Part shown: piece after piece, positions 5,965-25,439 of the stretch | Layout of the letters: each line of letters begins with the position of its first letter | Position numbering within the stretch: the stretch's first letter is position 1 | Notes under the pieces: model-generated | Seen by the model: only the letters and a program-made list of their open reading frames with translations | What the model was told of the DNA's origin: nothing | Databases searched by the model: none | Made by a program: the position numbers and the translations under genes | NCBI GenBank assembly: GCA_017544285.1 | Contig: JAFYEL010000058.1 | Span: forward strand, 1-61,326 | From: Lachnospiraceae bacterium | Lineage (GTDB): Bacteria; Bacillota; Clostridia; Lachnospirales; Lachnospiraceae | Length of the DNA: 61,326 nt | Direction: 5' to 3'

Positions 5965-5979
5965 AAAATGGGATATAAT
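5951..5979 (+). promoter_or_regulatory. Promoter of the first glycan gene cluster
   Basis: TTGCTA (5951-5956) and a perfect TATAAT (5974-5979) are spaced by 17 bases. The -35 box lies inside the 3' end of the ABC exporter gene. The predicted leader is about 15 bases and holds the GTGAGG ribosome binding site of the epimerase gene. Confidence 0.65.
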
Positions 5980-6000
5980 AGGACGAAGTGAGGTAAGAAC

Positions 6001-9415: not shown

Positions 9416-10533
9416 AGATATTGATAGTTTCCCATGAATATCCCCCCATCGGCGGCGGCGGCGCAAACGCCTGTAAGTTTCTGTCCCGTGAATTCGTAAA
9501 GAGAGGCCACAGCGTGGTGGTTGTCACCGCGGGCTTTGAGAGCCTCAACGGGATCGCTGAGGAGGACGGCTATGCCATCCACAGGCTGCCCTGCAAAAGA
9601 AAGCACAGGGAGCACTGTTCCTTTGCCGAGATGTCGGACTATATAAACAGGGCCATGCCCTACTGTGCTCAGCTTCAGAACCTTGCACATTTTGACGTCT
9701 GCATGGTCTTCTTCGGGATACCAGGAGGAGTTGTGGGCCGCTATCTCAAGAGCAGGTTTTCACTGCCTTATATCATCCGCTTCGGAGGCGGAGACATTCC
9801 CGGTTTCCAGGAGCGGTTTAAGCTGATATACAAGTTTGTCTCTCCCTTTGTGAAGAATATCTGGCATCATGCCTCGGCCCTTGTGGCAAACAGCGAGGGT
9901 CTGAAAAAGTTCGCCCTGGATTTTTGCCCCAAATATCCGGTACAGGTGGTGCCCAACGGAGTTGATACGGATTTCTTTTCCCCGGAAGGCTCAACCGTAA
10001 GCGATGAGGGAGATGAGGTAAGGCTCCTGTTCGTATCCAGGCTGATAAAGAGAAAGGGACTCCAGAACCTGATCCCCCATCTTAAGGATATCGAAAAGGC
10101 CTGCGGCAGGCGCGTTACCCTGACGGTTGTGGGTGACGGCCCCTACAGGGAGAGCCTTGAAAACCTCTGTACCTTCCATGATGTGGAGGACAGAGTCAGC
10201 TTTGAGGGACAGAAGGATAAAGAGGAAATACCGCCCTATTTTTCCAAGGCGGATATTTTTGTTTTCCCCTCATCAAGAGAGGGAATGCCCAATGCGGTGC
10301 TCGAAGCCATGGCGGGAGGACTGCCTGTGGTTATGACTCCCTGTGAGGGAGCTGCCGAGCTGATAGACGGCAACGGCATTATCGCAGAGGAGGGTGAGTT
10401 TTATAAGAGTGTAATAGAAGCCGTTAAATCCGGGCGTCTTGCCGATATGGGAAGGCGCAGCGCAAAAAGAGCCCGAAAGGAATTCTCCTGGGGGCAGACG
10501 GCGGAGAAATATCTGGAGATCATGAAATTATGA
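9412..10533 (+). CDS. Glycosyltransferase family 4, GT-B fold
   Basis: This 373-residue cytosolic enzyme begins with MKILIVSHEYPPIGGGG, the glycine-rich N-terminal loop typical of GT4. The C-terminal half holds LFVSRLIKRKGLQNLI and FVFPSSREGMPNAVLEAMA, with the E-x7-E type nucleotide-sugar binding motif. The start overlaps the previous stop by 4 bases (ATGA) and its own stop overlaps the next start, so it sits in the middle of a translationally coupled set. Donor and acceptor cannot be read from the sequence. Confidence 0.88.
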   Translation: MKILIVSHEYPPIGGGGANACKFLSREFVKRGHSVVVVTAGFESLNGIAEEDGYAIHRLPCKRKHREHCSFAEMSDYINRAMPYCAQLQNLAHFDVCMVFFGIPGGVVGRYLKSRFSLPYIIRFGGGDIPGFQERFKLIYKFVSPFVKNIWHHASALVANSEGLKKFALDFCPKYPVQVVPNGVDTDFFSPEGSTVSDEGDEVRLLFVSRLIKRKGLQNLIPHLKDIEKACGRRVTLTVVGDGPYRESLENLCTFHDVEDRVSFEGQKDKEEIPPYFSKADIFVFPSSREGMPNAVLEAMAGGLPVVMTPCEGAAELIDGNGIIAEEGEFYKSVIEAVKSGRLADMGRRSAKRARKEFSWGQTAEKYLEIMKL

Positions 10534-11525
10534 AAAAAGTATCTGTGGTTGTTCCCGTATACAACGAAGAGGGCAATGTGAAAGAACTTCACAAGGAGAT
10601 CGTGGACACCTGTGAAAAGGCGGGACTTGATTATGAGATAATATTTGTGGACGACGGCTCCGGGGACAAGACCGCCGAAATATGCAAGAGCCTGTGCCCC
10701 TTAAAGCTCATATGTTTCAGGCGTAATTTCGGCCAGACAGCGGCTATGGATGCCGGAATTAAGGCGGCAAAGGGCGATTATATCATCACCATGGACGGCG
10801 ATCTTCAGAACGATCCCGCGGAGATACCCGCCCTTATCAAATACCTTGAAGAAAACGACCTTGACGTGGTTTCCGGATGGAGAAAAAACCGCAAGGATAC
10901 TTTTTTCAAAAAATTCACCTCGAGGGTAGCAAACCTTCTGCGTTCCATCATAGTAAAAGACGGCATTCACGACAGCGGATGTTCTTTAAAGATATACAGG
11001 AGGGAGTGCTTCAGAGGTGTTAATCTGTACGGCGAGCAGCACCGTTTCATACCCGCCCTTTTAAAGATAAAGGGCTTCAGGGTAGGTGAGATGGTGGTAA
11101 ACCACAGGCCCAGGACGGCAGGTGTCACGAAATACAACTGGCACAGGGCAGTCAAGGGATTTGTGGATATGATATCCGTCTGGTTCTGGGATAAATATGC
11201 TGCAAGACCGCTTCATATCTTCGGCGGTCTGGGCATGATATTCATGGGCATCGGAGGCATCTGCGGCATCATGACCATCAGACTCTTCCTCATGGGACTG
11301 AAGCTGAACAGAAACATTATGTGGCCCGTGATGACCATCTTCTTCGTGATCATAGGTCTGATGATGTTTGTCTTCGGACTGATGAGTGAGATCATGATGA
11401 AGACGTATTACGGCGTTCACGTTGACATGCCCTATAACATCCGGTACATCACCATGGACGGAGAGGACATCACCGAGGAAGCCCTTCCCGATATCAAGGG
11501 CCGTCACCTCATAAGAAATCAATGA
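10530..11525 (+). CDS. GT2 polyprenyl-phosphate sugar synthase (DPM1/GtrB-like)
   Basis: This 331-residue protein has an N-terminal GT-A domain and two C-terminal TM helices (about residues 232-255 and 267-292). The blocks VVPVYNEEGNV, FVDDGSGDKT, RNFGQTAAMDAGI and TMDGDLQNDP are characteristic of dolichyl/undecaprenyl-phosphate mannose, glucose or related synthases. These load a sugar onto the lipid carrier at the inner face so that it can be flipped and used by GT-C enzymes. The GT-C protein encoded at 7064 is the natural partner. It overlaps its neighbours by 4 bases on both sides. Confidence 0.88.
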   Translation: MKKVSVVVPVYNEEGNVKELHKEIVDTCEKAGLDYEIIFVDDGSGDKTAEICKSLCPLKLICFRRNFGQTAAMDAGIKAAKGDYIITMDGDLQNDPAEIPALIKYLEENDLDVVSGWRKNRKDTFFKKFTSRVANLLRSIIVKDGIHDSGCSLKIYRRECFRGVNLYGEQHRFIPALLKIKGFRVGEMVVNHRPRTAGVTKYNWHRAVKGFVDMISVWFWDKYAARPLHIFGGLGMIFMGIGGICGIMTIRLFLMGLKLNRNIMWPVMTIFFVIIGLMMFVFGLMSEIMMKTYYGVHVDMPYNIRYITMDGEDITEEALPDIKGRHLIRNQ

Positions 11526-12400
11526 TGGGAAAACTGAGACTTTTTGCGGTATTTTGCGCTCTTATGGTGGTGCTCTGCGCCTGTGAGGGGGAAGGTATAT
11601 CATCCCCGAAGGACAGTGCGTCGCAGTCCCTTCCGGTAATAGTGATGGATGAACCGTCACCGGAAGTAAAGACGGAGCCGGAAGAGGACAGGGAAGAAGC
11701 CCCGGAGGAGACCGGTGAGGATACGGTGAAAGAAGCTGCCCCTGCGACCGGGGAGGATATGAACGAAACGGTTGAAGAGGGCACGCCGGAAGAAACTGAT
11801 GGTATCGAAGCCGGAGACTGGGTGGACAATCTCAAAGCCGCGGCATCGGAATCCCAGATACTCACTGTTGCCGCGTCCGGAAGCAGCGCACAGGTGTCCC
11901 TTCATGATAAGGGAGGGGACGGACATTTCAGACAGGTCTTTCAGACCGATGCATCCATAGGAAAAAACGGAATAGGAAAGAGCCGTGAGGGCGACGGCAA
12001 GACTCCCACGGGGAAGTACCGCTTCACCATGGCCTTCGGGCGAAAGAGCGATCCGGGCTGCAGCCTGGGATACACTCAGGTGGACGGAAACTGTTTCTGG
12101 GTGGATGATCCGGAGTCGAAGTATTATAACTCCTTTGCCGACACAAGGTCCGTTACGCCGGACTGGAAGAGTGCCGAGAACCTGTACGGGGCGGGAGCCT
12201 CATATAACTATGCCCTTGCGCTGGATTACAATGCGGCAAGGGTGCCGGGGAAGGGTTCCGCCATCTTTGTACACTGCAGGCCCACAGGAGGTGCAGGCTG
12301 CATCGCCATGGAGGAATCCATGGTAAAAAAACTGCTGGTGAATGTAAAACCGGGGTGCCTTGTGATAATAGACTCGGCCGATGGGATAGCCGGCTATTGA
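11522..12400 (+). CDS. Lipoprotein with L,D-transpeptidase (YkuD-like) catalytic domain
   Basis: This 292-residue exported protein has a signal peptide ending in a lipobox (VLCAC, Cys near 21), so it is probably lipid-anchored outside the membrane. An acidic low-complexity linker spans about residues 25-100. The C-terminal domain has GKSREGDGKTPTGKYRF and then FVHCRPTGGAGCIAM, with His251 and the presumed nucleophile Cys260, as in YkuD/ErfK-type L,D-transpeptidases. These enzymes cross-link peptidoglycan or attach proteins to it. ATGATG offers two starts (11522 or 11525). It closes the five-gene cluster that starts at 6001, so wall modification is a likely theme. Confidence 0.82.
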   Translation: MMGKLRLFAVFCALMVVLCACEGEGISSPKDSASQSLPVIVMDEPSPEVKTEPEEDREEAPEETGEDTVKEAAPATGEDMNETVEEGTPEETDGIEAGDWVDNLKAAASESQILTVAASGSSAQVSLHDKGGDGHFRQVFQTDASIGKNGIGKSREGDGKTPTGKYRFTMAFGRKSDPGCSLGYTQVDGNCFWVDDPESKYYNSFADTRSVTPDWKSAENLYGAGASYNYALALDYNAARVPGKGSAIFVHCRPTGGAGCIAMEESMVKKLLVNVKPGCLVIIDSADGIAGY

Positions 12401-12913: not shown

Positions 12914-13996
12914 ATGAGAACATACCTGGTTACGGGAGGCGCCGGCTTCATCGGCTCCAATTACATTCACTACATGTTTGAAAAATACGGCGATGAGATC
13001 CGCATCATAAATGTGGATGCCCTTACCTATGCGGGAAATCCCGAGAATCTCAAGGATATTGAGGGCCGCGACAACTACACCTTTATCAAGGCTGACATCA
13101 CCGACCGCGAGGCCATAGAGGATATATTCGACAAAAACGATATCGACAGGGTGGTGCACTTTGCCGCAGAGAGTCATGTGGACCGATCCATCACCGATCC
13201 CGAGGTCTTTGTAAAGACAAACGTGCTGGGCACTCTTGTAATGCTCAATGCCGCAAAAAAAGCCTGGGAGAATCCCGACGGAAGCTTTAAGGAGGGAAAG
13301 AAATTCCTCCATGTTTCCACTGACGAGGTATACGGCTCTCTCTCTGATCCGGACGATTATTTTTACGAGACAACCCCTTACGATCCCCACAGTCCCTACT
13401 CTGCCAGCAAGGCATCTTCGGACTTCATCGTAAAGGCTTACATGGACACCTACAGATTCCCTGCAAACATCACCAACTGCTCAAATAACTACGGACCTTA
13501 CCAGTTCCCGGAAAAGCTGATACCCCTCATGATCAACAACGCTCTTTCCGGCCGTGACCTTCCGGTTTACGGTGACGGCAAGAATGTCCGTGACTGGCTC
13601 TATGTTGAGGATCACGCCAAGGGCATAGACATGGTCCAGGAAAAGGGGCGTCTCTTTGAGACCTACAATATCGGCGGCCACAACGAAAAGCAGAATATCG
13701 AGATAGTCAACATCATCATCGAGACTCTTCTTGAGCTTCTTCCCGCTGATGACCCCCGCAGGAAAAATGTGGGCACCCATCTGATCAAATACGTCACCGA
13801 CCGCAAGGGCCATGACCGCAGGTATGCCATCGCTCCCGACAAGATAAAGAGCGAGCTGGGCTGGGAGCCCGAGACCATGTTTGCCCAGGGTATAAAAAAG
13901 ACCATAAAGTGGTACTTAGAGCACGAAGAGTGGATGCAGAACATCGTAAACGGTGACTATATGAACTACTACGATAAGATGTACGGTGACCGTTGA
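12914..13996 (+). CDS. rmlB: dTDP-glucose 4,6-dehydratase
   Basis: This enzyme converts dTDP-glucose to dTDP-4-keto-6-deoxyglucose, the second step of dTDP-L-rhamnose synthesis. The 360-residue protein has the NAD site TGGAGFIGSNY at the N-terminus, then FAAESHVDRSI, then the STDEVYGSL block with the catalytic Thr-Asp-Glu, then YSASKA (Tyr-x3-Lys). All are diagnostic of RmlB. The open frame reaches back to 12827, but the start at 12914 was chosen because it has a CGGAGG ribosome binding site and begins directly with the Rossmann strand. rmlA and rmlC follow at short distance. Confidence 0.96.
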   Translation: MRTYLVTGGAGFIGSNYIHYMFEKYGDEIRIINVDALTYAGNPENLKDIEGRDNYTFIKADITDREAIEDIFDKNDIDRVVHFAAESHVDRSITDPEVFVKTNVLGTLVMLNAAKKAWENPDGSFKEGKKFLHVSTDEVYGSLSDPDDYFYETTPYDPHSPYSASKASSDFIVKAYMDTYRFPANITNCSNNYGPYQFPEKLIPLMINNALSGRDLPVYGDGKNVRDWLYVEDHAKGIDMVQEKGRLFETYNIGGHNEKQNIEIVNIIIETLLELLPADDPRRKNVGTHLIKYVTDRKGHDRRYAIAPDKIKSELGWEPETMFAQGIKKTIKWYLEHEEWMQNIVNGDYMNYYDKMYGDR

Positions 13997-14032
13997 GTCG
14001 GCATTGTTAAAGCTGCAAGATAGGAGATAAAA

Positions 14033-14902
14033 ATGAAGGGAATAATTCTGGCAGGCGGATCCGGCACAAGGCTCTATCCGCTGACAAAAGCGGTAAGCAA
14101 GCAGATGATGCCTGTTTACGACAAGCCCATGATATACTACCCGCTTTCAACACTGATGCTTGCGGGTATCCGTGAAGTCCTGATAATCTCCACACCCAGG
14201 GACCTTCCCGCATTCGAGGAACTCCTGGGCACCGGAGAACAGCTGGGCATGAGCTTTTCCTATGCGGTACAGGAGCTGCCCAACGGCCTTGCGGAGGCCT
14301 TTATCATAGGTGATTCCTTTATCGGGAACGACAGGGTCGCAATGGTCCTGGGAGACAATATCTTCTACGGCCAGAATTTCTCGAGCGTGCTGAGGAGAGC
14401 CGCAGAGAGAGAGGACGGGGCCACTATTTTCGGCTATTACGTAAAGGACCCCAGGGATTACGGCGTGGTTGAGTTCGACCGCATGAACAGGGTCATCTCC
14501 ATCGAGGAAAAGCCCGAGAATCCCAAGTCAAATTACGCGGTTCCGGGACTCTACTTCTACGACAACGACGTGGTTGATATCGCCAAAAACGTGAAGCCTT
14601 CGGCACGCGGCGAGATAGAGATCACTTCGGTAAACAACGAGTACCTGAAGAGAGGAAAGCTTCATGTGGAGACTCTGGGCAGAGGCTTTGCCTGGCTCGA
14701 CACCGGTACTCATGATGCCCTTCTGGATGCGGCGGACTTCGTCAGCGCCTTCCAGAAAAGACAGGGACTTTACATCTCCTGCATAGAGGAGATCGCATAT
14801 AAACGCGGCTTTATAGACAAGGACAAGCTTATCGCCCTTGCACAGCCGCTTCTTAAAACCGCTTACGGAGCCTATCTGATGGATGTGGCTAACGGACTTT
14901 GA
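14033..14902 (+). CDS. rmlA: Glucose-1-phosphate thymidylyltransferase
   Basis: RmlA joins dTTP and glucose-1-phosphate to give dTDP-glucose, the first step towards dTDP-rhamnose, and is usually feedback-inhibited by dTDP-rhamnose. The 289 residues are standard for the family. [18 protein letters not shown] is the nucleotide-binding signature, followed by [18 protein letters not shown] and, further on, [11 protein letters not shown] with the metal-binding Asp. It lies 36 bases after rmlB with an AGGAG ribosome binding site, and 13 bases before rmlC. Confidence 0.97.
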
Positions 14903-14915
14903 TTTGGAGGATGCA

Positions 14916-15467
14916 ATGGGAAAGATCAGTGTTGAAACCTGTCACATAGAGGGCCTTAAGATCATAACTCCCACGGTTTTCGGGGATGAGAGAGGCTACT
15001 TCATGGAGACCTACAACTACAACGATTTCGCCGAGGCAGGCATTGACTGCACCTTTGTTCAGGACAACCAGTCCTCATCCCGCAAGGGAGTGCTCAGGGG
15101 CATGCATTTTCAGAAAAACTTTCCCCAGGACAAACTGGTAAGGGTTATCAGCGGAGAGGTTTTTGACTGCGTCATAGACATGAGAAAAGGGTCTCCCACC
15201 TACGGGCAGTGGTTCGGCGTGGTGCTCAGCGCGGAAAACAAAAAGCAGTTTTTTATACCCAAGAATTTTGCCCACGGTTTCCTGGTACTTTCGGATAAGG
15301 CTGAATTCACCTACAAGTGTACCGATTTTTATCATCCCGATGACGAGGGCGGAGTGGCCTGGAACGATCCCGAGGTGGGCATAGAGTGGCCCATTCCCGA
15401 GGGTATGGAGCTCACCCTTTCACCCAAGGATGAGAAGTGGCCCGGCATTTCTGCATATAAGAATTGA
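14916..15467 (+). CDS. rmlC: dTDP-4-dehydrorhamnose 3,5-epimerase
   Basis: RmlC epimerises dTDP-4-keto-6-deoxyglucose at C3 and C5, the third step of dTDP-rhamnose synthesis. The 183-residue cupin has FGDERGYFMETYN, the catalytic His in GVLRGMHFQ, DVIDMRKGSPTYG-like spacing around the active site, and FFIPKNFAHGFLVLS. The upstream in-frame ATG at 14883 would overlap rmlA; the start at 14916 was preferred because of the TTGGAGG ribosome binding site. The stop TGA shares one base with the next start. No rmlD (the final reductase) lies anywhere in the window. Confidence 0.95.
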   Translation: MGKISVETCHIEGLKIITPTVFGDERGYFMETYNYNDFAEAGIDCTFVQDNQSSSRKGVLRGMHFQKNFPQDKLVRVISGEVFDCVIDMRKGSPTYGQWFGVVLSAENKKQFFIPKNFAHGFLVLSDKAEFTYKCTDFYHPDDEGGVAWNDPEVGIEWPIPEGMELTLSPKDEKWPGISAYKN

Positions 15468-16441
15468 TGACTACCAAGAAAAAGGTTATCCTGTCCGTTT
15501 TAGCCCTGATAATTGCGTGGAACTGCTACATCATTTTTCACCGTAACGTTCTGGCGGATCAGGAACAGGAGATAATAAAAAAGATCATATCGTGCGTGAT
15601 CATTGACGGTGCCTTTGCCTGCTTTGCCCTGTTCTATGACAGGATAGTGATCCTTCCAGTGGAGCTCTGGCAGAACAGAGAACTCATCAGCAAGCTGGCC
15701 ATCAATGATTTCAAATCAAAATATTCGGGAAATTACCTGGGCATTTTCTGGGCCTTTGTCCAGCCCGTCATCACGGTGCTGGTGTACTGGTTCGTCTTTG
15801 CGGTGATGCGCGGCGACTGGGGACTTGACGGTAACGGCTACCCCTTCGTGCTCTGGCTCATCGCCGGGATAGTGCCCTGGTTCTTTTTTTCCGACGCCAT
15901 AAGTCAGGGCACCAACGCCCTTCTGTCTTATGAGTACCTGGTTAAAAAGGTGGTCTTCAAGATCAGTATACTCCCCATAATCAAGGTCATATCCGTAATG
16001 TTCATTCACGGATTTTTCGTGATATTCACACTTGTGCTGCTGGCGTGTTACGGGTATTATCCGGATCTTTACAGTCTTCAGATAGTGTATTTTTCCTTCT
16101 GCATGTTTCTGCTCACCCTGGCTATGTCCTATATCACCTGTTCCGTGGTGGTATTCTTCAGGGACCTGGGGCAGATGATCGCCATAGCGCTGCAGGTGGG
16201 TATCTGGATTACACCCATAATGTGGAATATCGAGGTCCTTCCCAGGCAGCTGCAGATCCTTTTCAAGCTGAATCCCGTCTTCTATGTGGTGGACGGTTAC
16301 AGGATGGCTCTTCTGGATAAGATGTGGTTCTGGGAGCATTTTTATTCCACGGCATACTTCTGGATATTTACGGTGGTCTGTTTTCTGCTCGGCGCCCTTG
16401 TGTTCAAAAAGCTCAAGGTGCATTTTGCCGATGTGCTGTAG
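15467..16441 (+). CDS. ABC-2 type polysaccharide export permease (Wzm/TagG/RfbA family)
   Basis: This integral membrane subunit of a glycan ABC exporter has 324 residues. Two predicted TM helices at the N-terminus (about 7-24 and 42-58) precede the usual ABC-2 permease core of six helices. The core starts with the amphipathic ELISKLAINDFKSKYSGNYLG segment typical of TagG/Wzm. It also has WAFVQPVITVLVYWFVF and, near the end, LNPVFYVVDGYR. The two extra N-terminal helices are an addition relative to standard Wzm. The ATG at 15467 overlaps the rmlC stop by 1 base; TTG at 15464 is an alternative. The ATPase partner is at 18157, separated from it by the CotH-like gene. Confidence 0.92.
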   Translation: MTTKKKVILSVLALIIAWNCYIIFHRNVLADQEQEIIKKIISCVIIDGAFACFALFYDRIVILPVELWQNRELISKLAINDFKSKYSGNYLGIFWAFVQPVITVLVYWFVFAVMRGDWGLDGNGYPFVLWLIAGIVPWFFFSDAISQGTNALLSYEYLVKKVVFKISILPIIKVISVMFIHGFFVIFTLVLLACYGYYPDLYSLQIVYFSFCMFLLTLAMSYITCSVVVFFRDLGQMIAIALQVGIWITPIMWNIEVLPRQLQILFKLNPVFYVVDGYRMALLDKMWFWEHFYSTAYFWIFTVVCFLLGALVFKKLKVHFADVL

Positions 16442-16444
16442 GAT

Positions 16445-18157
16445 ATGAACAGGAAAGCTTTTCTCATCCTGCTGTCGGTTATATCGGCGGTCCTGATCTT
16501 AATAATGTGTCTTTCTCCCCGCAGTGAACAGGCAGATGAAAAAAGCCCGCTCCCGGAAGTACGGGAAACGGCCTCTGTTTTTGCGGTCGTGGAAGGAGGA
16601 GCCGCCTCGCAGCGGATATCACCTTACTTCAAAGATGAGGAGGCATATTTTTTCCTTCCCGCCTTTGCGGACAGGAAAAAGCTGACCCTTGGGACGGCTG
16701 ACGGAGCAAGGGTGGTTTTGAACGGACAGGAGATCGGATCTTCATATGTGATGGATGCAGGCAGTCTGCCCGGGGATCTTGAGATCTACCGCGGGGATTC
16801 CTTCGAGAAATACACACTGAACTGCATGTGGTCCGAAAAGGTACCCGCCGTCTTTATTGAGACCGGCAGCGGTGATATGACGGCGGTAGACTCCGACAAA
16901 GAGGTGGTTGACGAGGGCCGTTACACGGTGATCGACGGCAGCGGGCACACCGACGGACAGGGAAGCCTGGATTTCATACACGCCAGGGGCAATTCCAGCT
17001 TTCAGGCGGAAAAGAAATCCTACAGGATCAAGCTTTCCGAAAAGGATTCCCTTTTGGGACTGCCCTCCGACAGGAGCTTTATACTTCAGGCTAATGCATA
17101 TGACAATACCGATATACGCAATGCGCTTGCCTTTTCCCTGGCGGAAAAATGGGGCATGGACTTCATTCCCCGGTATGTGCAGACGGATCTGTATTTAAAT
17201 GGCGGATACGCCGGCGCCTACACCCTTATGGAATCAATAAAGGTGACGCCGGAAAGGATAAATATAGCGGGGGACGGGGGTTATCTCTTTGAGGTGGTCC
17301 ACGACGAAAAGCGTCTGGATGACGACAGCTTTGCCTTTATGTGCGGTGGCGAGGTTCATCTCAGGGTTCTGTATCCCGAGAAGCTTACGGCCACGGAAAA
17401 GCAGTATACCGAGTCCCATATGAACAGGATAAATGACATGATAGAGGAACTGGGGAAAGATGAGTCCACAGCTGAGCTTGAGAATTATCTGGACCTGGAT
17501 TCCTTTGCAAGGATGTACCTGTTCAATTTTGTGACCAACGATATCGACGCGGGGAACTATTCTTCCTACCTCTACATAGACCCCGCGGATAAAAAGGTCC
17601 ACCTGGGACCGGTCTGGGACTATGATAAGGCCTGGGGAAACGAGTATAAGAAAAACGGACTGCCCGAGTTCAATTCCTACTCCTACAGATGGCCGGAGAT
17701 CCTTTCGGACAACAAAGAGATGAAAGAGCGTATCAGGCTCTGCTACGAGGGGGTCAGTCCTGTCACTGATATGATGCGCGCTGAGGGCATTTTGGGCCTT
17801 GCGGATGAGGTCAGGGAGTCAGCAGCCATGGACAGGGTCAGATGGGGCAATCTGAGCTCACAGAGCGTTGATACCGGCAGCTTTGACTCGGACGTGGAAC
17901 AGCTTGCCGGATATTATGGAGACCGGGTTTCCCTCCTTGAGGATGTGCTTTATAAGGACGATCTTTGCAAGGTGTTTATTAAGGGGCCCAGTGGACGGCT
18001 CTTCTGGGTGAAAAAAGGAGAAGGGCTGTCGAAGGAGCAGCTTGATTTTGCGCGAAAGCTTTTCGGAAGCGATAAGTTCTTCCTGCCCTCGGGAGAGGAA
18101 GTCGATGAGACTGCGGTATTTGTTGAAGATACGGTAATTAAACCGGAGAATATGTGA
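16445..18157 (+). CDS. Exported or membrane-anchored CotH-family kinase-like protein
   Basis: CotH proteins have an atypical protein-kinase fold and phosphorylate Ser residues, as shown for the Bacillus spore coat. This 570-residue protein has an N-terminal membrane anchor or signal sequence (about residues 5-22), an N-terminal beta-rich domain (about 35-150) and the CotH domain from about 165. Hallmarks are RGNSS (181-185) with nearby Lys residues in SYRIKL, DNTDIRNALAF, the TDLYLNGGYAGAYTLMES block, and VWDYDKAWGN near 390-399 with metal-binding Asp residues. A short C-terminal extension follows. It sits between the permease and ATPase genes of a glycan exporter, with overlaps of a few bases. 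Its substrate is unknown, and the unusual position suggests a role in modifying or anchoring the exported glycan. Confidence 0.83.
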   Translation: MNRKAFLILLSVISAVLILIMCLSPRSEQADEKSPLPEVRETASVFAVVEGGAASQRISPYFKDEEAYFFLPAFADRKKLTLGTADGARVVLNGQEIGSSYVMDAGSLPGDLEIYRGDSFEKYTLNCMWSEKVPAVFIETGSGDMTAVDSDKEVVDEGRYTVIDGSGHTDGQGSLDFIHARGNSSFQAEKKSYRIKLSEKDSLLGLPSDRSFILQANAYDNTDIRNALAFSLAEKWGMDFIPRYVQTDLYLNGGYAGAYTLMESIKVTPERINIAGDGGYLFEVVHDEKRLDDDSFAFMCGGEVHLRVLYPEKLTATEKQYTESHMNRINDMIEELGKDESTAELENYLDLDSFARMYLFNFVTNDIDAGNYSSYLYIDPADKKVHLGPVWDYDKAWGNEYKKNGLPEFNSYSYRWPEILSDNKEMKERIRLCYEGVSPVTDMMRAEGILGLADEVRESAAMDRVRWGNLSSQSVDTGSFDSDVEQLAGYYGDRVSLLEDVLYKDDLCKVFIKGPSGRLFWVKKGEGLSKEQLDFARKLFGSDKFFLPSGEEVDETAVFVEDTVIKPENM

Positions 18158-19449
18158 TGGAAAATGAAATCGCTATCAGGGTATCCCACCTTGATAAGAT
18201 CTACAAGCTTTATAATAAACCGACGGACAGACTCAGGGAGTCCCTGGGGCTCTGCGGAAAAAAACGGCTCTCCAAGGATCACTACGCCCTTAAGGACGTT
18301 AGCTTTGAGGTAAAAAAGGGAGAGACGGTGGGCATAATCGGTACCAACGGATCCGGTAAATCCACCATCCTTAAGATCATCACCGGCGTGCTTTCGCCCT
18401 CTTCCGGAACCGTGGATATAAAGGGGCGGATCTCGGCACTTTTGGAGCTGGGAGCCGGCTTTAACCAGGAGTTTACCGGCATAGAGAACATATATCTGAA
18501 CGGCACCATGATAGGCTTTTCAAAGGCCGAGATCGACGAAAAGCTCCAGGATATTCTGGATTTTGCGGACATAGGAGACTTTGTCTATCAGAAGACCAAG
18601 ACCTATTCCAGCGGTATGTTTGTCAGGCTTGCCTTTGCGGTGGCCATTAACATCGATCCCGAGATCCTGATAGTGGACGAGGCCCTTTCGGTGGGTGACG
18701 TTTTCTTCCAGAATAAGTGCTACCACAAGTTTGAGGAGTTCAAGGCCCAGGGCAAGACCATTCTTTTTGTTTCCCATGACCTCTCTTCCATCTCGAAGTA
18801 CTGTGACCGCGTGGTGCTCCTTGAGCACGGCGTCAAGCTGGGAGAGGGCGGTACCAAGGAAATGATCGATATGTACAAGAAGGTGCTTGTACATCAGCTG
18901 GATGATTCCGCCATGGAAAATGCCGCAAAGAGCAATGCCCTGGATTCCGGAAAAAAAGGCGGGCTCTGGAAGTCGAATATGGTGGTCAATCCCGACGCGG
19001 ATATCTACGGAAGCGGACTTGCGGAGATCACGGATTTCTGTGTTGTGGACAACAGCGGAAACATCACCAACACCATAATCAAGGGTGATAATTTCTCGGT
19101 TAAGGTAAAGGTTAAGTTCTTCAAGCATATTTCCGAGCCCATAATTGCGGTTTCGGTCAAGAACAGGATGGGAGTCGAGATAACCGGCACAAATACCATG
19201 TTTGAGAAGCTGTCCACGGGAGAGCCTGAGAACGGGGATGAGATAACCGTGACATTTTCACAGAAGATGAGCCTGCAGGGAGGAGAATATCTTATTTCCC
19301 TGGGATGTACCGGATACATGGACGGAGATTTTACGGTATACCACAGGATGTACGATATCTTTTCCATCCAGGTAATCTCATCCAAAGATACTGTGGGTTA
19401 TTACGATTGGGATTCAGATGTCTCTATTCACAGAACACGAAGAGACTGA
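18157..19449 (+). CDS. Polysaccharide ABC exporter ATPase with C-terminal Wzt carbohydrate-binding domain
   Basis: This 430-residue ATPase powers the ABC-2 glycan exporter. Residues 1-240 form the nucleotide-binding domain: Walker A GTNGSGKST, a TagH/Wzt-type ISALLELGAGFNQEFTG stretch, signature TYSSGM, Walker B EILIVDEALSVGD and H-loop FVSHD. After a linker, residues about 275-425 form a beta-sandwich (strands around VDNSGNITNTI, NFSVKVKVKF, MSLQGGEYLISLG) like the Wzt C-terminal domain that recognises the end of finished O-antigen chains in E. coli O8/O9a. The ATG at 18157 overlaps the cotH stop by one base; GTG at 18154 is an alternative. Confidence 0.93.
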   Translation: MENEIAIRVSHLDKIYKLYNKPTDRLRESLGLCGKKRLSKDHYALKDVSFEVKKGETVGIIGTNGSGKSTILKIITGVLSPSSGTVDIKGRISALLELGAGFNQEFTGIENIYLNGTMIGFSKAEIDEKLQDILDFADIGDFVYQKTKTYSSGMFVRLAFAVAINIDPEILIVDEALSVGDVFFQNKCYHKFEEFKAQGKTILFVSHDLSSISKYCDRVVLLEHGVKLGEGGTKEMIDMYKKVLVHQLDDSAMENAAKSNALDSGKKGGLWKSNMVVNPDADIYGSGLAEITDFCVVDNSGNITNTIIKGDNFSVKVKVKFFKHISEPIIAVSVKNRMGVEITGTNTMFEKLSTGEPENGDEITVTFSQKMSLQGGEYLISLGCTGYMDGDFTVYHRMYDIFSIQVISSKDTVGYYDWDSDVSIHRTRRD

Positions 19450-19463
19450 AAGGATAATTATAC

Positions 19464-21545
19464 ATGACAGAAAAAATCGGCAAAGTAAGCCTTGATCTGA
19501 CGGACTACTCCGGAAAAGACCTGTACAGCGAGGGAGATGCGGAGGATGTTCTCCTCTCCATCGTTAAAGAGCACGGCCCCGAAGAGTACAACCATCAGAT
19601 AATGGCCCACCAAAGCTGGTCAACCCTCTACCATCTTTCGGATCTGAGGGGAAATATAATAGATTTCCTTCCGGTAAAGGAGGGAGAAAAGGTCCTGGAG
19701 GTAGGAGCGGGCTGCGGTGCAGTGACAAGCGCGCTTGTAAAGACGGGAGCTGCCATCACCTGCGTGGAGCTTTCAAAGAAGCGCTCCCTCATCAACGCTC
19801 ACAGAAACTCAGGCTGTGAAAACCTTGAGATCAAGGTGGGCAATTTCCAGGATATCGAGAAAAGGCTCGATAAAGACTATGATCACATCATGCTCATAGG
19901 TGTATTTGAGTACGCCGCTTCATACATAGACGCTCCGGATCCCTACAGGACCTTTATGAAGATCCTTCTGGGACATCTGAAGGAGGGCGGCAGAATGATG
20001 ATCGCCATAGAAAACAAGTATGGCCTCAAGTATTTTGCCGGCTGCAGAGAGGATCATCTGGGCACCTTCTTCGGAGGCATTGAAGGCTATGAGGACTCCG
20101 CTAAGGTCCGTACCTTCTCAAGAGACAAGCTGAGAAAAATGGCAGAGGAAGAGGGCTGCAGTGTTTTCGAGTACTACCCCTATCCGGACTACAAGCTTCC
20201 CGTCACCGTCTTTTCCCAGGAAAGGCTTCCCTATTCCGGCGAGACGGACAGCCGGGGCTTTAATTTCGACGCCGACAGGGCCCTGCTCTTTGACGAGAGT
20301 GCCGCCACCACCCAGATAATAGAGGACGGCATGTTTCCCTTCTTTTCAAACTCATTTTTGTTTGAACTGAAAAAAGGCTCATCCGGAGCGGAGAGCGACA
20401 GGGTAATTTATTCCAGGCACTCCAACGAGCGCTCGCCCCTTTATGCCATCAGAACAGACATTATCAGAAAACCCTCGGGAGAATTTTCGGTAAAAAAATG
20501 CCCCCTTTCGGAGCGTTCCGAGGCTCACGTAAGATCCCTGGCGGATAAATACGAGAAACTGAAAGCCTATTTTGAGGGCTCACGTTTTGCCGCAAACCAT
20601 TGCAGTCTAAGCGGCAGGGATGCGGAATTTGAATTTATTGAAGGCGACACCCTGGAGAGGGAGCTCATAGACCTTTTGAAAAACGGCAGGGAGGATGTGG
20701 CCTATTCCCTCATGAAGGAGTTTTCCATCTTCCTTGAGTCCCTGGGGCGTGATGAGGACGGGAATATGTCGGTCTGCGATGTGGACATGATCTTTTCCAA
20801 TATCATCCGTGAAAACGGAACCTGGCATGTGCTGGACTACGAATGGACGGACCTGGTGAAGGCACCCTGTGGCTTCGTCTTCTACAGGGCGCTGAAATAT
20901 TTTGCCGCAGCCTGTCCCGAGGTATCGCTTTTGGACATGTGTATCAGGTTCGGAATAGACGAGGATGCCGCCTCTGAATACGAAGAAAAGGAAGCTCTGC
21001 TCCAGCAGCGTATCGCCCAGGGACGATTAAGTCTTATCGCCTTTGACGCCATCTTCGGAAAGGGAGCCTACACCCTGAAGGAGATGATGAGAACCGTTGA
21101 GGCAAGAGGCAGGATCGAGAGAGCGAAACTCTATTTTGACTGCGGAGAAGGCTTCTCGGAGGGCAATTGCTGCTACACTGAGGGCAGGATAATAGATAGA
21201 AATAAGTTAATTTTCGATATAACATTACCTAATAACATAAAAGCGCTGAGGATAGATCCCTCGGATAATCCATGCATGATTAAACTATTTCATGCAGACG
21301 CCAGAGAACTCAGCACCAACGGACATAAAATAAATAACGATACGATATATTTTGGAGAGCCGGATCCTCAGATGATCTTCGACCTCAGATCATATAATAA
21401 CACCGTGTTCCATATTGAATACCAGATAGGGTATATCGAGGAAGGTTTTCAGGAGAGGATCAACGAGGTTGTGAAGAAGGCAACGGAAAAATGGAAGGGT
21501 TTATTCGGTGGAAAGGAGATCTATGAAAAGGTCACGTTATCTTGA
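19464..21545 (+). CDS. Methyltransferase-kinase fusion resembling WbdD chain terminators
   Basis: This 693-residue protein appears to have three parts. Residues about 40-290 are a class I SAM methyltransferase with motif I VLEVGAGCGA (77-86). Residues about 310-560 resemble a small-molecule or eukaryotic-type kinase: a possible ATP-binding Lys in FSVKK (near 343), the EFIEGDTLE hinge-like segment, a catalytic loop with Asp441 and Asn446 (D-x4-N spacing), and Asp458 in HVLDYEW in the DFG position. Residues 570-693 are a beta-rich tail of unknown role, encoded by AT-rich DNA. The methyltransferase-plus-kinase order, next to wzm and a wzt with an extra domain, is that of WbdD, which caps E. coli O9a chains with methyl phosphate. 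Capping of a Gram-positive glycan is inferred; no such activity is shown. Confidence 0.7.
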   Translation: MTEKIGKVSLDLTDYSGKDLYSEGDAEDVLLSIVKEHGPEEYNHQIMAHQSWSTLYHLSDLRGNIIDFLPVKEGEKVLEVGAGCGAVTSALVKTGAAITCVELSKKRSLINAHRNSGCENLEIKVGNFQDIEKRLDKDYDHIMLIGVFEYAASYIDAPDPYRTFMKILLGHLKEGGRMMIAIENKYGLKYFAGCREDHLGTFFGGIEGYEDSAKVRTFSRDKLRKMAEEEGCSVFEYYPYPDYKLPVTVFSQERLPYSGETDSRGFNFDADRALLFDESAATTQIIEDGMFPFFSNSFLFELKKGSSGAESDRVIYSRHSNERSPLYAIRTDIIRKPSGEFSVKKCPLSERSEAHVRSLADKYEKLKAYFEGSRFAANHCSLSGRDAEFEFIEGDTLERELIDLLKNGREDVAYSLMKEFSIFLESLGRDEDGNMSVCDVDMIFSNIIRENGTWHVLDYEWTDLVKAPCGFVFYRALKYFAAACPEVSLLDMCIRFGIDEDAASEYEEKEALLQQRIAQGRLSLIAFDAIFGKGAYTLKEMMRTVEARGRIERAKLYFDCGEGFSEGNCCYTEGRIIDRNKLIFDITLPNNIKALRIDPSDNPCMIKLFHADARELSTNGHKINNDTIYFGEPDPQMIFDLRSYNNTVFHIEYQIGYIEEGFQERINEVVKKATEKWKGLFGGKEIYEKVTLS

Positions 21546-23379
21546 GCTGATCTCCTATGCCGAGGATCCATATCAGGGGTTTTTAAAATATAAAGGCTGC
21601 CTTGAGGAGAAACCGGTTTCCGACAGACGATATTCGGATCTTTGCGCAGCTCTTTTTGACCTGGGATATGTGCTTTACACCGGAAAGGGCTTCCTGGAGG
21701 AGGAATTCCTGTCCCTGGCACATGAAAGGATATCCGAAAACCTTGAAAAAACAGGGAAGACCCCGGAACTGGTTTATTGCGACGAGGACAGGAGAACGGT
21801 TGTTAACCGAGATCGAAAAGAGCCCTTTTTTAAGCCGGATTTTTCTCCGGACACTCTCAGGGGTTTCTTCTATATAGGAGGAGCTCTTCTTATTAAGAGA
21901 AGCAATGAGAAAAGCTTTCAAAACCAACTGGGAGAGTCGGACTACCTGAGGCTGGCGGGATCCATACTCAGATCTTTTATAAATAACAGGGCGACATTTA
22001 ATTCTATACATATTTGCAGGGTGTTATTTCATTCCGAGGACGAAACCGATTACCGCTACCCCGAGGGAGTGCATCCCACCCTGCCAACCTCTCCCGAGGG
22101 AAGGGAAAAGAAAAAAGTCAGGGCTGTTATCCTTTCTAAAAATAACAAAGAGTTACTTTTAGACTGTCTGGATTCCTTTATCAACAACAGCGACATGGAG
22201 ATGGAATATGTGGTTGTGGACAATGGGAGCGAGGAAATAATTAGAGCAGAAATTAAATCAGAGCTTGATAAACGTAACATTTGCTATCTTTATTCCCCCA
22301 TGGAATTTATATATTCGGCATTGTGTAATCTGGGTGCCGGAGCAGAGGGTGAAGACTACACCCACCTACTATTATTAAATGATGATATAATATTGCCCGA
22401 AGGTAAAAAGGGCTTTCCTTCGGAGCTTGTGGCCCAGTCAGACCTTCCTCATGTGGGGGCTGTAGGGGTTAAGCTTAAGTATCCGGATCGCGAAGGTTTT
22501 GAAAACCGGATCCAGCATGTTGGGATCACTCTTCTGAAAAACGGCCCCTCTCACAAGCTTTGTACCTATGACGATTCCGTAGTCTACGAACGGGGACGTA
22601 ACCGGGGGATATGGAATGTCATGGCTGTCACAGGTGCCTGTATGCTCATCCGTCGTGACAGGTTTGAAGAGGTGGGAGGCTTTGACGAAAGACTTCATGT
22701 CTCATATACGGATGTGGATCTGTGTATGGATTTGCAGAAAAAGGGATACTATAATATAGTATTGAATGATATTTTCCTGATCCACTACGAATCCCTCACC
22801 AGAGGATCCGACGGAGCGGATGAAAAAAAGGCCGGCAGGCTCATAAGAGAGAGAAAGATTTTTTATGAGAAGCATCCTGAGCTTTTGGAGACCGGAGACA
22901 GGTACTATAATCCGAATCTTACAAAGCTCAGACTTGACTATACCGCAGACTACCCTCTTCCCTGGGAGGAGGAAGTCATGGCAGAGGAGATCGGCATTGA
23001 CAACCTTCATATAAAGGAAGGGGTAAAAAAGCTGGACGGAAGTATTGACAGATCCGACCGCCTTGTGCCCGTCTTTGAGGAGGATGAGGAATGCGTGAGG
23101 CTTGAGGGCTGGTGTCTGATCCACGGAAGGGACATGCTTGGCTATGAACCTGCCGTGGCTGCAAAGACTTCGGACGGGTACAGAGTCTTTGAGGCCCGGC
23201 GTAAGATCAGGAAGGATCTGGGAGAGGTCTTCCCCGGCGATAAAAACGTACTCCTCTCCGGGTTTGTCTGCAGGATAAGAACCGGACAGCTTCCGGCGGG
23301 AGAGAATGTGAGTTATCACCCGGCACTGCTTAAGAATGGTTTGCTTGGCACAAACCTCTATGTTTTGGATAAGAGCTGA
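21523..23379 (+). CDS. GT2 glycosyltransferase with a truncated N-terminal GT2 half
   Basis: This 618-residue protein is probably a rhamnosyl- or similar transferase of the RgpF/tandem GT2 type. The second half is a full GT-A domain: VRAVILSKNNKELLLDCLDS, VVVDNGS, LLLNDDIIL (DxD equivalent), QHVGITL, VTGACMLIRRDRFEEVGGFD and YTDVDLCMDLQKKGY. The first about 180 residues keep only the middle of a GT2 domain (ELVYCDED and KPDFSPDTLRGFFYIGGALL) and lack the nucleotide-binding start, so this half is probably inactive. A beta-rich tail follows. The start at 21523 has AAAGGAG and overlaps the preceding gene by 23 bases; GTG at 21508 is an alternative. DNA near 22240-22400 is AT-rich. Confidence 0.82.
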   Translation: MKRSRYLELISYAEDPYQGFLKYKGCLEEKPVSDRRYSDLCAALFDLGYVLYTGKGFLEEEFLSLAHERISENLEKTGKTPELVYCDEDRRTVVNRDRKEPFFKPDFSPDTLRGFFYIGGALLIKRSNEKSFQNQLGESDYLRLAGSILRSFINNRATFNSIHICRVLFHSEDETDYRYPEGVHPTLPTSPEGREKKKVRAVILSKNNKELLLDCLDSFINNSDMEMEYVVVDNGSEEIIRAEIKSELDKRNICYLYSPMEFIYSALCNLGAGAEGEDYTHLLLLNDDIILPEGKKGFPSELVAQSDLPHVGAVGVKLKYPDREGFENRIQHVGITLLKNGPSHKLCTYDDSVVYERGRNRGIWNVMAVTGACMLIRRDRFEEVGGFDERLHVSYTDVDLCMDLQKKGYYNIVLNDIFLIHYESLTRGSDGADEKKAGRLIRERKIFYEKHPELLETGDRYYNPNLTKLRLDYTADYPLPWEEEVMAEEIGIDNLHIKEGVKKLDGSIDRSDRLVPVFEEDEECVRLEGWCLIHGRDMLGYEPAVAAKTSDGYRVFEARRKIRKDLGEVFPGDKNVLLSGFVCRIRTGQLPAGENVSYHPALLKNGLLGTNLYVLDKS

Positions 23380-23399: not shown

Positions 23400-25439
23400 A
23401 TGGCTAAGAATAAAGAAAAAGAAACAAAACCGAATAACCTTGAGGCTTACTTCAAAGAGCTTTATGAGAAGGAGAGGGACAAAAACAGGGAGCTGACAGA
23501 ACTTCTGGTGGCTGCCGAGGAGAGAGCGTCGGAGGCCGAGAGAAAGCTTGATGTACTTAAGCAGAGTAAACTCTTCAAGCTGATCAAGCCGTTTCGCAAT
23601 GTGTACGCAAAGCTTCTTGATATAAAGGTAAGGCTTGCCCGACACGGCAGCATCAGGGGTATCATTGCAAAGATAAAGTCGAAGCGGATCGAAAAGCAGG
23701 CCTGCAAGTTCCACGGGACCCTCAGCTTTCCCGATGAAGAAGAGAGGAAGAGACAGAGGGAATACCACTTCGAGCATAACCATCTTTTCAGCATACTTGT
23801 GCCTCTTTACAATACTCCGGAAGGCTTTCTGACACAGATGATAGAATCCGTCACCTGTCAGACCTACGAAAACTGGGAGCTCTGCCTGGCGGACGGTTCC
23901 GATGAGGACCACGCCTATGTGGAGCAGATCGTAAAGCGCTACATAGATGAGGAAAAGAGCGCCGGCAGGGACAGGATCCGTTACATGAGGCTGGATGAGA
24001 ACCGGGGTATTTCAGGAAACACCAACAAATGCTGTGAAATGGCCACCGGAGATTACATATCCCTTCTGGATCATGACGATGTGCTGCACCCCTCAGTGCT
24101 CTTTGAATACGCAAAGCGGATCGAGGAAACGGATGCGGACTTTATCTACTGTGATGAGACCACCTTCTGCGATGACAATATAGATAAGATGATAACCCTT
24201 CATTTCAAGCCGGATTTTTCTCCGGACAATCTGAGGGCCAATAATTATATCTGTCATTTCAGTATGTTCAGGGCCTCACTTCTTGAGGGAATGGAGCTGT
24301 TCCGTTCACAGTTTGACGGAAGCCAGGACCATGATATGATCTTAAGGCTCACCAGGGCGGCAAAGCGTATAGAGCATGTGCCAAAGATCCTTTACTACTG
24401 GCGTTCCCACGAGGCATCCGTGGCATCCGGCATCGAGGCAAAGACCTACGCCATAGACGCGGCAAAAAATGCTGTCCTTGACGATCTGGAGTGCAGGGGT
24501 ATCCACGGTGCAAAGATCGAGAGCACCAGAGCCTTCGCCACCATCTTCAGGATACGCTATCCCCTGAACGGAAATCCTCTGATATCCATAGTCATACCCA
24601 ACAAGGATCATTTGGAGGATCTTAAGCGCTGTATCGAATCCATAGTGACCAAGGCCAGCTACGAAAACTACGAGCTGGTGGTGGTTGAGAATAATTCAAA
24701 GAGTAAGGAGATCTTTGCATATTATAAGGAGCTGGCGAAGACTCTCCCCAATTTCCGTCTGGTGACCTACAAGGGCGCCTTTAACTATTCGGCGGTATGC
24801 AATCTGGGAGTGAAGAATGCAAAGGGCGAATACATCCTGCTGCTGAACAACGACACCCAGGTGATCTCCAGAAATTTCATGGAAGAGCTGCTGATGTACG
24901 CCCAGAGAGAGGATGTGGGCGCCGTCGGAGCCAAGCTCTATTTCGGCGATCACAAGATACAGCATGCAGGCATCGTCATCGGTCTGGGTGCTCACAGAAG
25001 CGCCGGCCACACCCATTACGGCCTTTCAAAGGATAACCTGGGATACATGGGAAGGCTTTGCTATGCCCAGGATGTGACTGCGGTAACGGGGGCCTGCCTG
25101 ATGGTGAAAAAATCCCTGTATGACCGGGTCGGAGGCCTGGAGGAAAAACTTTCCGTGGCTTTGAATGACGTGGATTTCTGTCTGAAGCTTCGCAGAGAGG
25201 GGCTGCTGAATGTGTTCACCCCCTTTGCCGAGCTCTTCCACTTTGAATCGGTATCCCGCGGCACCGATTCGGCAGAGGACGAAAAAAACGCCAAAAGATA
25301 TCAGAAGGAATGCGACTTTTTCAAGGATAAATGGAAGGCCGAGCTGGAGGCCGGGGATCCCTATTACAACCCCAACTTTTCCCTGGATCACAGCAATTAC
25401 ACCCTTAAGGCCGCACCAATGGCACAGGTTGGAGAATGA
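23400..25439 (+). CDS. Tandem-domain GT2 glycosyltransferase
   Basis: This 679-residue protein has a charged, probably coiled-coil N-terminus (about residues 1-65), then two GT-A domains. Domain 1 (about 125-360) has FSILVPLYNTPEGFL, RGISGNTNKCC, SLLDHDDVLHP with the DxD, and YYWRSHEASVA. Domain 2 (about 385-640) has ISIVIPNKDHLEDLKRC, VVVENNS, ILLLNNDTQV, IQHAGIVIGLG, VTGACLMVKKSLYDRVGGL and ALNDVDFCLKLRREG. Dual-domain GT2 enzymes of this kind build rhamnose-containing wall polysaccharides in Firmicutes, which agrees with the rml genes upstream. Both active sites look intact, unlike the preceding gene. The ribosome binding site before 23400 is weak. Confidence 0.88.
   Translation: MAKNKEKETKPNNLEAYFKELYEKERDKNRELTELLVAAEERASEAERKLDVLKQSKLFKLIKPFRNVYAKLLDIKVRLARHGSIRGIIAKIKSKRIEKQACKFHGTLSFPDEEERKRQREYHFEHNHLFSILVPLYNTPEGFLTQMIESVTCQTYENWELCLADGSDEDHAYVEQIVKRYIDEEKSAGRDRIRYMRLDENRGISGNTNKCCEMATGDYISLLDHDDVLHPSVLFEYAKRIEETDADFIYCDETTFCDDNIDKMITLHFKPDFSPDNLRANNYICHFSMFRASLLEGMELFRSQFDGSQDHDMILRLTRAAKRIEHVPKILYYWRSHEASVASGIEAKTYAIDAAKNAVLDDLECRGIHGAKIESTRAFATIFRIRYPLNGNPLISIVIPNKDHLEDLKRCIESIVTKASYENYELVVVENNSKSKEIFAYYKELAKTLPNFRLVTYKGAFNYSAVCNLGVKNAKGEYILLLNNDTQVISRNFMEELLMYAQREDVGAVGAKLYFGDHKIQHAGIVIGLGAHRSAGHTHYGLSKDNLGYMGRLCYAQDVTAVTGACLMVKKSLYDRVGGLEEKLSVALNDVDFCLKLRREGLLNVFTPFAELFHFESVSRGTDSAEDEKNAKRYQKECDFFKDKWKAELEAGDPYYNPNFSLDHSNYTLKAAPMAQVGE

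Follow-up and report, generated by a model that had tools for sequence, protein, structure and literature searches.

In Klebsiella pneumoniae O7, the chain terminator ORF6-N (ORF6-O7) is reported to place methyl-phosphate on the 3-position of the terminal rhamnose; the D441A change is reported to inactivate it (PMC11231755). A related logic, in which a kinase and a methyltransferase cap the chain and the C-terminal domain of the exporter subunit Wzt reads the cap, is described for WbdD of Escherichia coli O9a (PMC3482155). For the Wzt of Aquifex aeolicus, Trp362 is reported to stack on an O-methyl cap, the W362L change essentially to abolish lipopolysaccharide (LPS) binding, and Asn313 to contact the sugar ring (PMC9445017). 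Capping and export checks of this kind are so far known mainly from double-membrane (diderm) bacteria. Here we analyze a contig of 61,326 nucleotides from a Lachnospiraceae bacterium (JAFYEL010000058.1, assembly GCA_017544285.1; "the window" below), whose host probably has a single membrane (monoderm). An open reading frame (ORF) at 19464..21545 on the forward strand predicts a 693-amino-acid protein that joins a methyltransferase to a kinase. With a probability of roughly 0.75, we read this protein as an O7 (ORF6-N)-type chain terminator that would add a phosphate and methyl cap, which the C-terminal domain of the adjacent Wzt would read to license export.

A preliminary description of the window had proposed a fusion of an S-adenosylmethionine (SAM) methyltransferase with a kinase-like domain in this ORF, and the fusion is real. 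The methyltransferase domain spans residues ~1-300 (19464..20363, forward strand), as judged from Pfam matches inside residues 51-234 (CMAS, 2e-9; Methyltransf_23, 2.8e-8) and from alignment to published site residues; the motif VLEVGAGCGA lies at exactly residues 77-86, where it had been placed. Residues 300-693 have no Pfam match. A kinase domain occupies residues 312-556 (20397..21131, forward strand), with K345, D441, N446, D458, E460, W461, and R475. It is followed by a conserved C-terminal region (residues 557-693; 21132..21545, forward strand) that aligns with the post-kinase region of O7-type relatives. Forty related loci were chosen by their match to the terminator, so the presence of a terminator in them is not a finding, whereas their neighboring genes are. 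The window and 39 of these 40 loci supplied 41 kinase-domain proteins: one locus (L060) contributes two, and the locus that supplied none is L066, whose domain escaped a single-sequence search but is detected by profile A3, built from 38 of the 41 kinase segments. D441 is kept in 40 of the 41 proteins and N446, D458, E460, W461, and R475 in all of them; the kinase-like spacing of Asp441, Asn446, and Asp458 to which the preliminary description had drawn attention is therefore not a chance pattern. K345 is kept in 39 proteins, the other two having gaps, and K345, D441, N446, and D458 are jointly present in 38. At L060, tandem terminator-like proteins are encoded at 9207-11075 and 4905-9200 (reverse strand), and one of them has Gln in place of D441.

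Sequence libraries barely name this kinase. Profile A3 matched nothing strongly in the Protein Data Bank (PDB), its best match being a marginal JAK1 at 0.04, and a whole-protein profile touched JAK-type kinases there at 1e-4 to 1e-3. Pfam scans of the 38 segments, with 25 of 38 families listed, returned no kinase family among those listed except for one Choline_kinase match (0.0076). Among the weak kinase-profile matches in the sampled genomes were nine proteins of 200 to 256 amino acids, and all five that were scanned are APH phosphotransferases (PF01636, 2.3e-12 to 1.5e-18). Alignment of the kinase profile to eight APH-type proteins gave an hhalign E-value of 6.8e-10, and alignment to 31 diderm kinase segments gave 2.3e-20, both being pairwise values that are not calibrated against a database. 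In the first alignment, D441 and N446 fall on the catalytic loop of the APH proteins. Residues 312-556 are, by profile comparison, an APH-like kinase domain. Two further proteins, at L081:1055-3325 and L083:1381-3405 (both reverse strand), combine a kinase-like domain (kinase-profile E-values of 2e-15 and 7.5e-13) with a cytidylyltransferase domain C-terminal to it, and the L083 protein has an additional weak methyltransferase match. They are possible paralogs that would use CTP to activate a sugar or alcohol bearing a phosphate.

The nearest known relative of the window protein, judged by sequence, is ORF6-N of K. pneumoniae O7 and not WbdD. Profile A1, for which 21 of the 28 proteins that have both domains were used, scored seven diderm relatives at 230 to 322 bits. 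The Pseudomonas asturiensis and Pseudomonas cichorii proteins align to it as one piece extending past the kinase, the former unbroken from 27 to 629; the Enterobacter JUb54 protein aligns in two pieces that jointly reach further, and a Citrobacter relative is weak in its kinase part (6 bits). The alignment to the P. asturiensis, P. cichorii, and JUb54 proteins extends into the region corresponding to the post-kinase part of ORF6-O7, which is reported to be an immunoglobulin (Ig)-like carbohydrate-binding module (CBM) (PMC11231755). Our comparison with ORF6-O7 itself rests on published residue numbers and on relatives. The reported SAM-site residues are Y28, Y66, G91, G93, E112, and Y158, and the catalytic Asp is D441 (PMC11231755). 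All six SAM-site residues stand at these literal numbers in P. asturiensis, whose catalytic Asp is at 443, and the P. asturiensis alignment gives Y21, Y56, G81, G83, E102, Y150, and D441 as the window equivalents. The window protein and ORF6-O7 share a methyltransferase, a kinase unnamed by sequence libraries, and then a further domain, as well as the catalytic Asp at 441, the SAM-site residues, an ABC-exporter pathway, and a rhamnose-containing glycan. They differ in that the O7 protein is described as extending through a coiled coil plus a pair of GT2 modules and its host is a diderm LPS maker (PMC11231755). The orthologs named in that work come from alpha- and gammaproteobacteria and cyanobacteria, with Bacillota not among them (PMC11231755).

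The preliminary description had called the protein WbdD-like. The capping and reading logic implied by that name is well supported by homology, linkage, and pocket residues, but the family label is wrong. If the protein were a true WbdD relative of the E. coli O9a type that had reached a monoderm, the shared methyltransferase-kinase order and wzm-wzt-terminator gene order would be explained, and the 12-residue spacing of Asn446 and Asp458 is close to the 13 residues reported between Asn356 and Asp369 of WbdD (PMC3482155). Yet E. coli HS WbdD reaches only 1.2 bits with profile A1, against 230 to 322 for the O7-type relatives, and the kinase profile gives no convincing alignment to it. This 708-amino-acid protein, encoded at the WbdD position of the O9 cluster in E. 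coli HS (L071), aligns with the window protein in the methyltransferase only. WbdD is also described as having a long C-terminal coiled coil, for which no counterpart was detected in the protein of the window, and as acting on polymannose (PMC3482155), and its kinase has no detectable sequence relation to that of the window. We therefore rejected membership in the WbdD family and regard this origin as highly improbable. Because WbdD was represented by a single sequence and the method barely links APH with WbdD, the result excludes close kinship rather than a common kinase fold.

A scan of genome contigs found at least 562 relatives, of which the best 80 were retained as the diderm set. These 80 come mostly from Proteobacteria, with others from Nitrospirota, Verrucomicrobiota-like bacteria, Bacteroidota, Acidobacteria, one cyanobacterium, and two oddly labeled metagenome-assembled genomes (MAGs). 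When the start was allowed to slide, 28 of the 80 matched at least six of the seven published ORF6-O7 residue numbers and four matched all seven; from the called ORF start, all seven were matched by Enterobacter JUb54 and one Micrococcales MAG. The family thus keeps the published spacing and accommodates ORF6-O7, but JUb54 does not stand out as its particular counterpart. In JUb54, ORFs of rml-like and wzm-like size and order precede wzt. Of the 80 proteins, 67 retain the Asp, Asn, Asp, and Trp of the kinase, two have Glu for the second Asp, and the remaining 11 differ or are not resolved by the alignment. An rmlBACD-wzm-wzt-terminator cluster lies on plasmid pF217-3 of Citrobacter braakii. 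Its terminator (L106:7944-9893) has Glu for the second kinase Asp, a change shared by L132 and L140; the kinase of such Glu-bearing terminators may be altered or inactive. The two oddly labeled hosts are a Micrarchaeota-labeled MAG (L123, 1,815 amino acids) and a Micrococcales-labeled MAG (L151, 622 amino acids), and their labels are possibly binning errors.

The kinase is closely linked to the exporter. In 200 genomes of the host's bacterial family, kinase-profile matches at 1e-3 were found in 113 and Wzt_C domains above the cut-off in 118. The linkage count leaves out seven rows that miss the Pfam threshold, together with 16 kinase rows whose matches are weaker than 1e-17, and the Wzt_C copies were divided into 100 close and 36 divergent ones at an E-value gap placed after inspection of the list. 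A kinase domain is found no more than 8 kb away from 96 of the 100 close copies (median, 1.6 kb) versus 1 of the 36 divergent ones (Fisher value of 2e-49, which ignores relatedness), and this one divergent copy (in G023) has the strongest match in its set. Of 100 genomes that have a close copy, 99 also have the kinase; conversely, 5 of 104 kinase genomes are without one, and 10 of 110 kinase places have no nearby Wzt_C. In 38 of the 41 loci, the methyltransferase is encoded by the gene that immediately follows wzt, and a Wzt ORF ends at most 400 bp upstream of the terminator in 37 of the 80 diderm loci, some loci being cut by contig ends. The 15 divergent loci that were read, out of 36 (L202-L216), have neither the methyltransferase nor the kinase domain of the terminator. 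Nine genes immediately downstream of a divergent wzt were scanned and comprise six methyltransferases of other families (one of the FkbM type), one glycosyltransferase, one epimerase, and one unassigned gene; these methyltransferases are candidates for making methyl-only caps. In broader samples the kinase is sparse, with matches at 1e-3 in 12 of 398 genomes of the phylum and 22 of 291 of the class, several of them from the host's own family and many others weak.

The window wzt (18154..19449, forward strand) encodes a TagH-like nucleotide-binding domain (18154..18888, forward strand; ABC_tran, 1.3e-23) and a C-terminal carbohydrate-binding domain (CBD) (18988..19446, forward strand). The latter matches PF14524 Wzt_C at residues 283-418 (1.3e-40), where a beta-sandwich had been proposed. 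Set A2 comprises 27 of the 41 Wzt sequences, and the C-domain profile A5 comprises 26 of the 41 plus three diderm rows. Against the PDB, A5 matched 2r5o at 1.3e-24, the A. aeolicus structure 7k2t at 2.8e-11, and 5hno at 2.6e-6; we take 2r5o to be the E. coli O9a Wzt domain, which agrees with the O9 sequence. By these profile matches, the window domain belongs to the solved family of cap-reading CBDs. Residues N347 and R398 map to the cap pocket of the A. aeolicus structure: the Asn313 position is kept, but Trp362 is replaced by Arg398. This column is Arg in all 41 kinase-paired Wzt proteins of the host family and in all 37 diderm Wzt proteins beside an O7-type terminator. E. coli O9 Wzt, which is 35% identical to the window Wzt over 417 aligned columns, shares the feature (Arg402). 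The 15 Wzt proteins without a paired kinase have Tyr (8), Phe (5), Trp (1), or Met (1), and none has Arg. Asn313 is kept in 41 of 41, 37 of 37, and 13 of 15 of these proteins, respectively. For the Wzt of E. coli O8 (IAI1), which has a methyl-only cap, an aromatic residue was predicted and recorded before the sequence was fetched, and the residue is Trp.

These observations bear on the idea that the enzyme merely decorates sugars along the chain or on a lipid-linked precursor and is neither a terminator nor the source of an export signal. The failure to find a ruler coiled coil on the window protein would suit such a role. The tight linkage to one Wzt_C subtype, the Arg in the reader pocket, and the existence of a characterized homologous terminator speak against it, and we consider it quite improbable.

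Some points weigh against the terminator proposal. On a tree of 58 of the Wzt rows, whose backbone is unresolved, Arg versus non-Arg requires only two changes; the genomes and the Wzt rows are related, and the independent events behind the Arg pattern are therefore few. Three of the 37 Arg-bearing diderm Wzt proteins adjoin a terminator with Glu for the second kinase Asp, and the presence of Arg is therefore no proof that the kinase is active. The coiled coil that is called the hallmark ruler of published terminators (PMC11127046) was not found after the window kinase, where a heptad score reached 0.29 against a control maximum of 0.76. Finally, a phosphate cap in a monoderm need not be methyl-phosphate, because the one reported for Clostridioides difficile is a cyclophosphate.

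That precedent and another from a monoderm also make the earlier statement that such a system had not been described in these bacteria too strong. WsaE of Geobacillus stearothermophilus is reported to make a 2-O-methyl cap predicted to be bound by Wzt (PMC2943079). Its locus resembles the window in its monoderm host, rml genes, wzm-wzt pair, and methyltransferase cap, but WsaE is described with two glycosyltransferase (GT) modules, with no kinase mentioned, and with 2-O-methyl-rhamnose as the cap (PMC2943079). No GT module was found in the window protein, which has the kinase domain instead. The S-layer glycan of C. difficile SLCT-11 is reported to end in 2,3-cyclophospho-rhamnose, and its authors liken termination to O9a (PMC6254364). 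According to this description, it shares with the window a monoderm host, a rhamnose-rich glycan, and an ABC exporter, and carries phosphate on the terminal rhamnose; it differs in the assignment of the cap as a 2,3-cyclophosphate, and the words "kinase" and "methyltransferase" never occur in the main text (PMC6254364). We considered the cyclophosphate as an alkaline artifact of methyl-phosphate and rejected this explanation, since it is reported on the native proteinase K glycopeptide (PMC6254364). In searches of the open-access literature, we found no paper that assigns a capping kinase in a monoderm.

The window cap might accordingly be a phosphate other than methyl-phosphate, for example a cyclic one, with the methyltransferase having another role or the two activities acting at different sites. 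The one chemically defined monoderm phosphate cap that we encountered is of this kind (PMC6254364), and in a number of relatives the methyltransferase and the kinase are separate genes (elsewhere, the kinase is fused to GT2). Even so, the two remain close together, and the diderm enzyme with the same domain pair is reported to make methyl-phosphate (PMC11231755), which leaves this alternative unlikely, though it deserves more weight than mere decoration.

The coiled-coil result depends on a home-made heptad score, a crude measure. It does detect the coil of WbdD (1.21 versus a shuffle maximum of 0.96), and 43 of the 57 scorable members of the diderm set exceed the control. Nineteen of the 41 host-family proteins do so as well, 17 of which are split or very long forms. 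Weakly supported is the idea that the ruler has shifted to GTb, the two-module GT2 glycosyltransferase at 23400..25439 (forward strand; two Glycos_transf_2 stretches, whole protein 1.7e-44). In 13 of 19 loci of the window type, the N-terminal 150 amino acids of GTb score above the control, versus 2 of 14 for GTa, the GT2-type glycosyltransferase at 21508..23379 (forward strand; Glycos_transf_2, 3e-8). However, the remainder of GTb is also often above the control (in the window, 0.86 versus 0.85 at the N terminus), and the N terminus of the window GTb does not surpass its own shuffles.

The operon order is rmlB, rmlA, rmlC, wzm, CotH, wzt, the methyltransferase-kinase gene, and two GT2 genes. 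rmlB, rmlA, and rmlC (12917..15467, forward strand; TIGR01181, TIGR01207, and TIGR01221) serve dTDP-L-rhamnose supply, and rmlD sits on another contig of the host genome (G000:C5), so dTDP-L-rhamnose can be made. The permease gene wzm is at 15464..16441 (forward strand; ABC2_membrane, 5.5e-15). The terminator had been described as lying next to wzm and wzt; both are in the operon, but a gene for a CotH-family protein with one hydrophobic segment (16445..18157, forward strand; PF08757, 1.6e-38) stands between them and had gone unmentioned. Among the 41 loci, a CotH-family kinase gene occurs at the wzm-wzt junction only in the window and in L031, of the same genus; ORFs of 493 to 512 amino acids stand there in L038, L040, and L042. 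Upstream, a protein with about nine hydrophobic segments and no Pfam match is encoded at 7064-9415 and a GT2 at 10530-11525, perhaps together forming an extracytoplasmic side-chain pair; our guess is that this GT2 is GtrB-like. A YkuD L,D-transpeptidase follows at 11522-12400.

The host genome measures 2.33 Mb and is ~84% complete, and its single Wzt_C domain is the one in this operon. Omp85 had no match in it at that completeness, versus matches in 7 of 14 control genomes; this fits a monoderm, which the host probably is, and is not proof given the completeness. One LytR-CpsA-Psr protein is present, from a family that also occurs in some diderm controls. Spo0A was not found, which says little at 84% completeness.

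Taken as an O7-type terminator, the window protein would act as follows. The neighboring GT2 enzymes would build a lipid-linked, rhamnose-containing glycan in the cytoplasm. The kinase domain would phosphorylate the non-reducing terminal sugar, presumably rhamnose in view of the rml genes and the O7 precedent, and the methyltransferase domain would then methylate that phosphate; we transfer this enzymology from ORF6-O7 on the grounds of homology. Capping would halt elongation. The Wzt C-domain would bind the capped end in a pocket where Arg398 takes the place of the aromatic residue of methyl-cap readers, and recognition would license export through Wzm/Wzt, a step modeled on the findings for O9a and A. 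aeolicus. The exported glycan might then be attached to the wall or to an S-layer protein.

A broader proposal, to which we give somewhat less than an even chance, is that the position of A. aeolicus Trp362 and window Arg398 is a family-wide switch of cap type (Arg for a phosphate end, an aromatic residue for O-methyl only), that a large monoderm group runs a phosphate-cap export checkpoint, and that the terminator of the window's subgroup has lost its coiled-coil ruler. On the terminator reading itself, the O7-type methyl-phosphate terminator would extend from diderms to a probably large monoderm family, with the kinase in 104 of the 200 genomes sampled. If so, many surface rhamnose glycans in this family would carry a terminal phosphate cap for which hardly any search has been made, and a sequence rule would sort Wzt exporters by the cap that they read. 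A terminator without a coiled-coil ruler also raises the question of how chain length is set.

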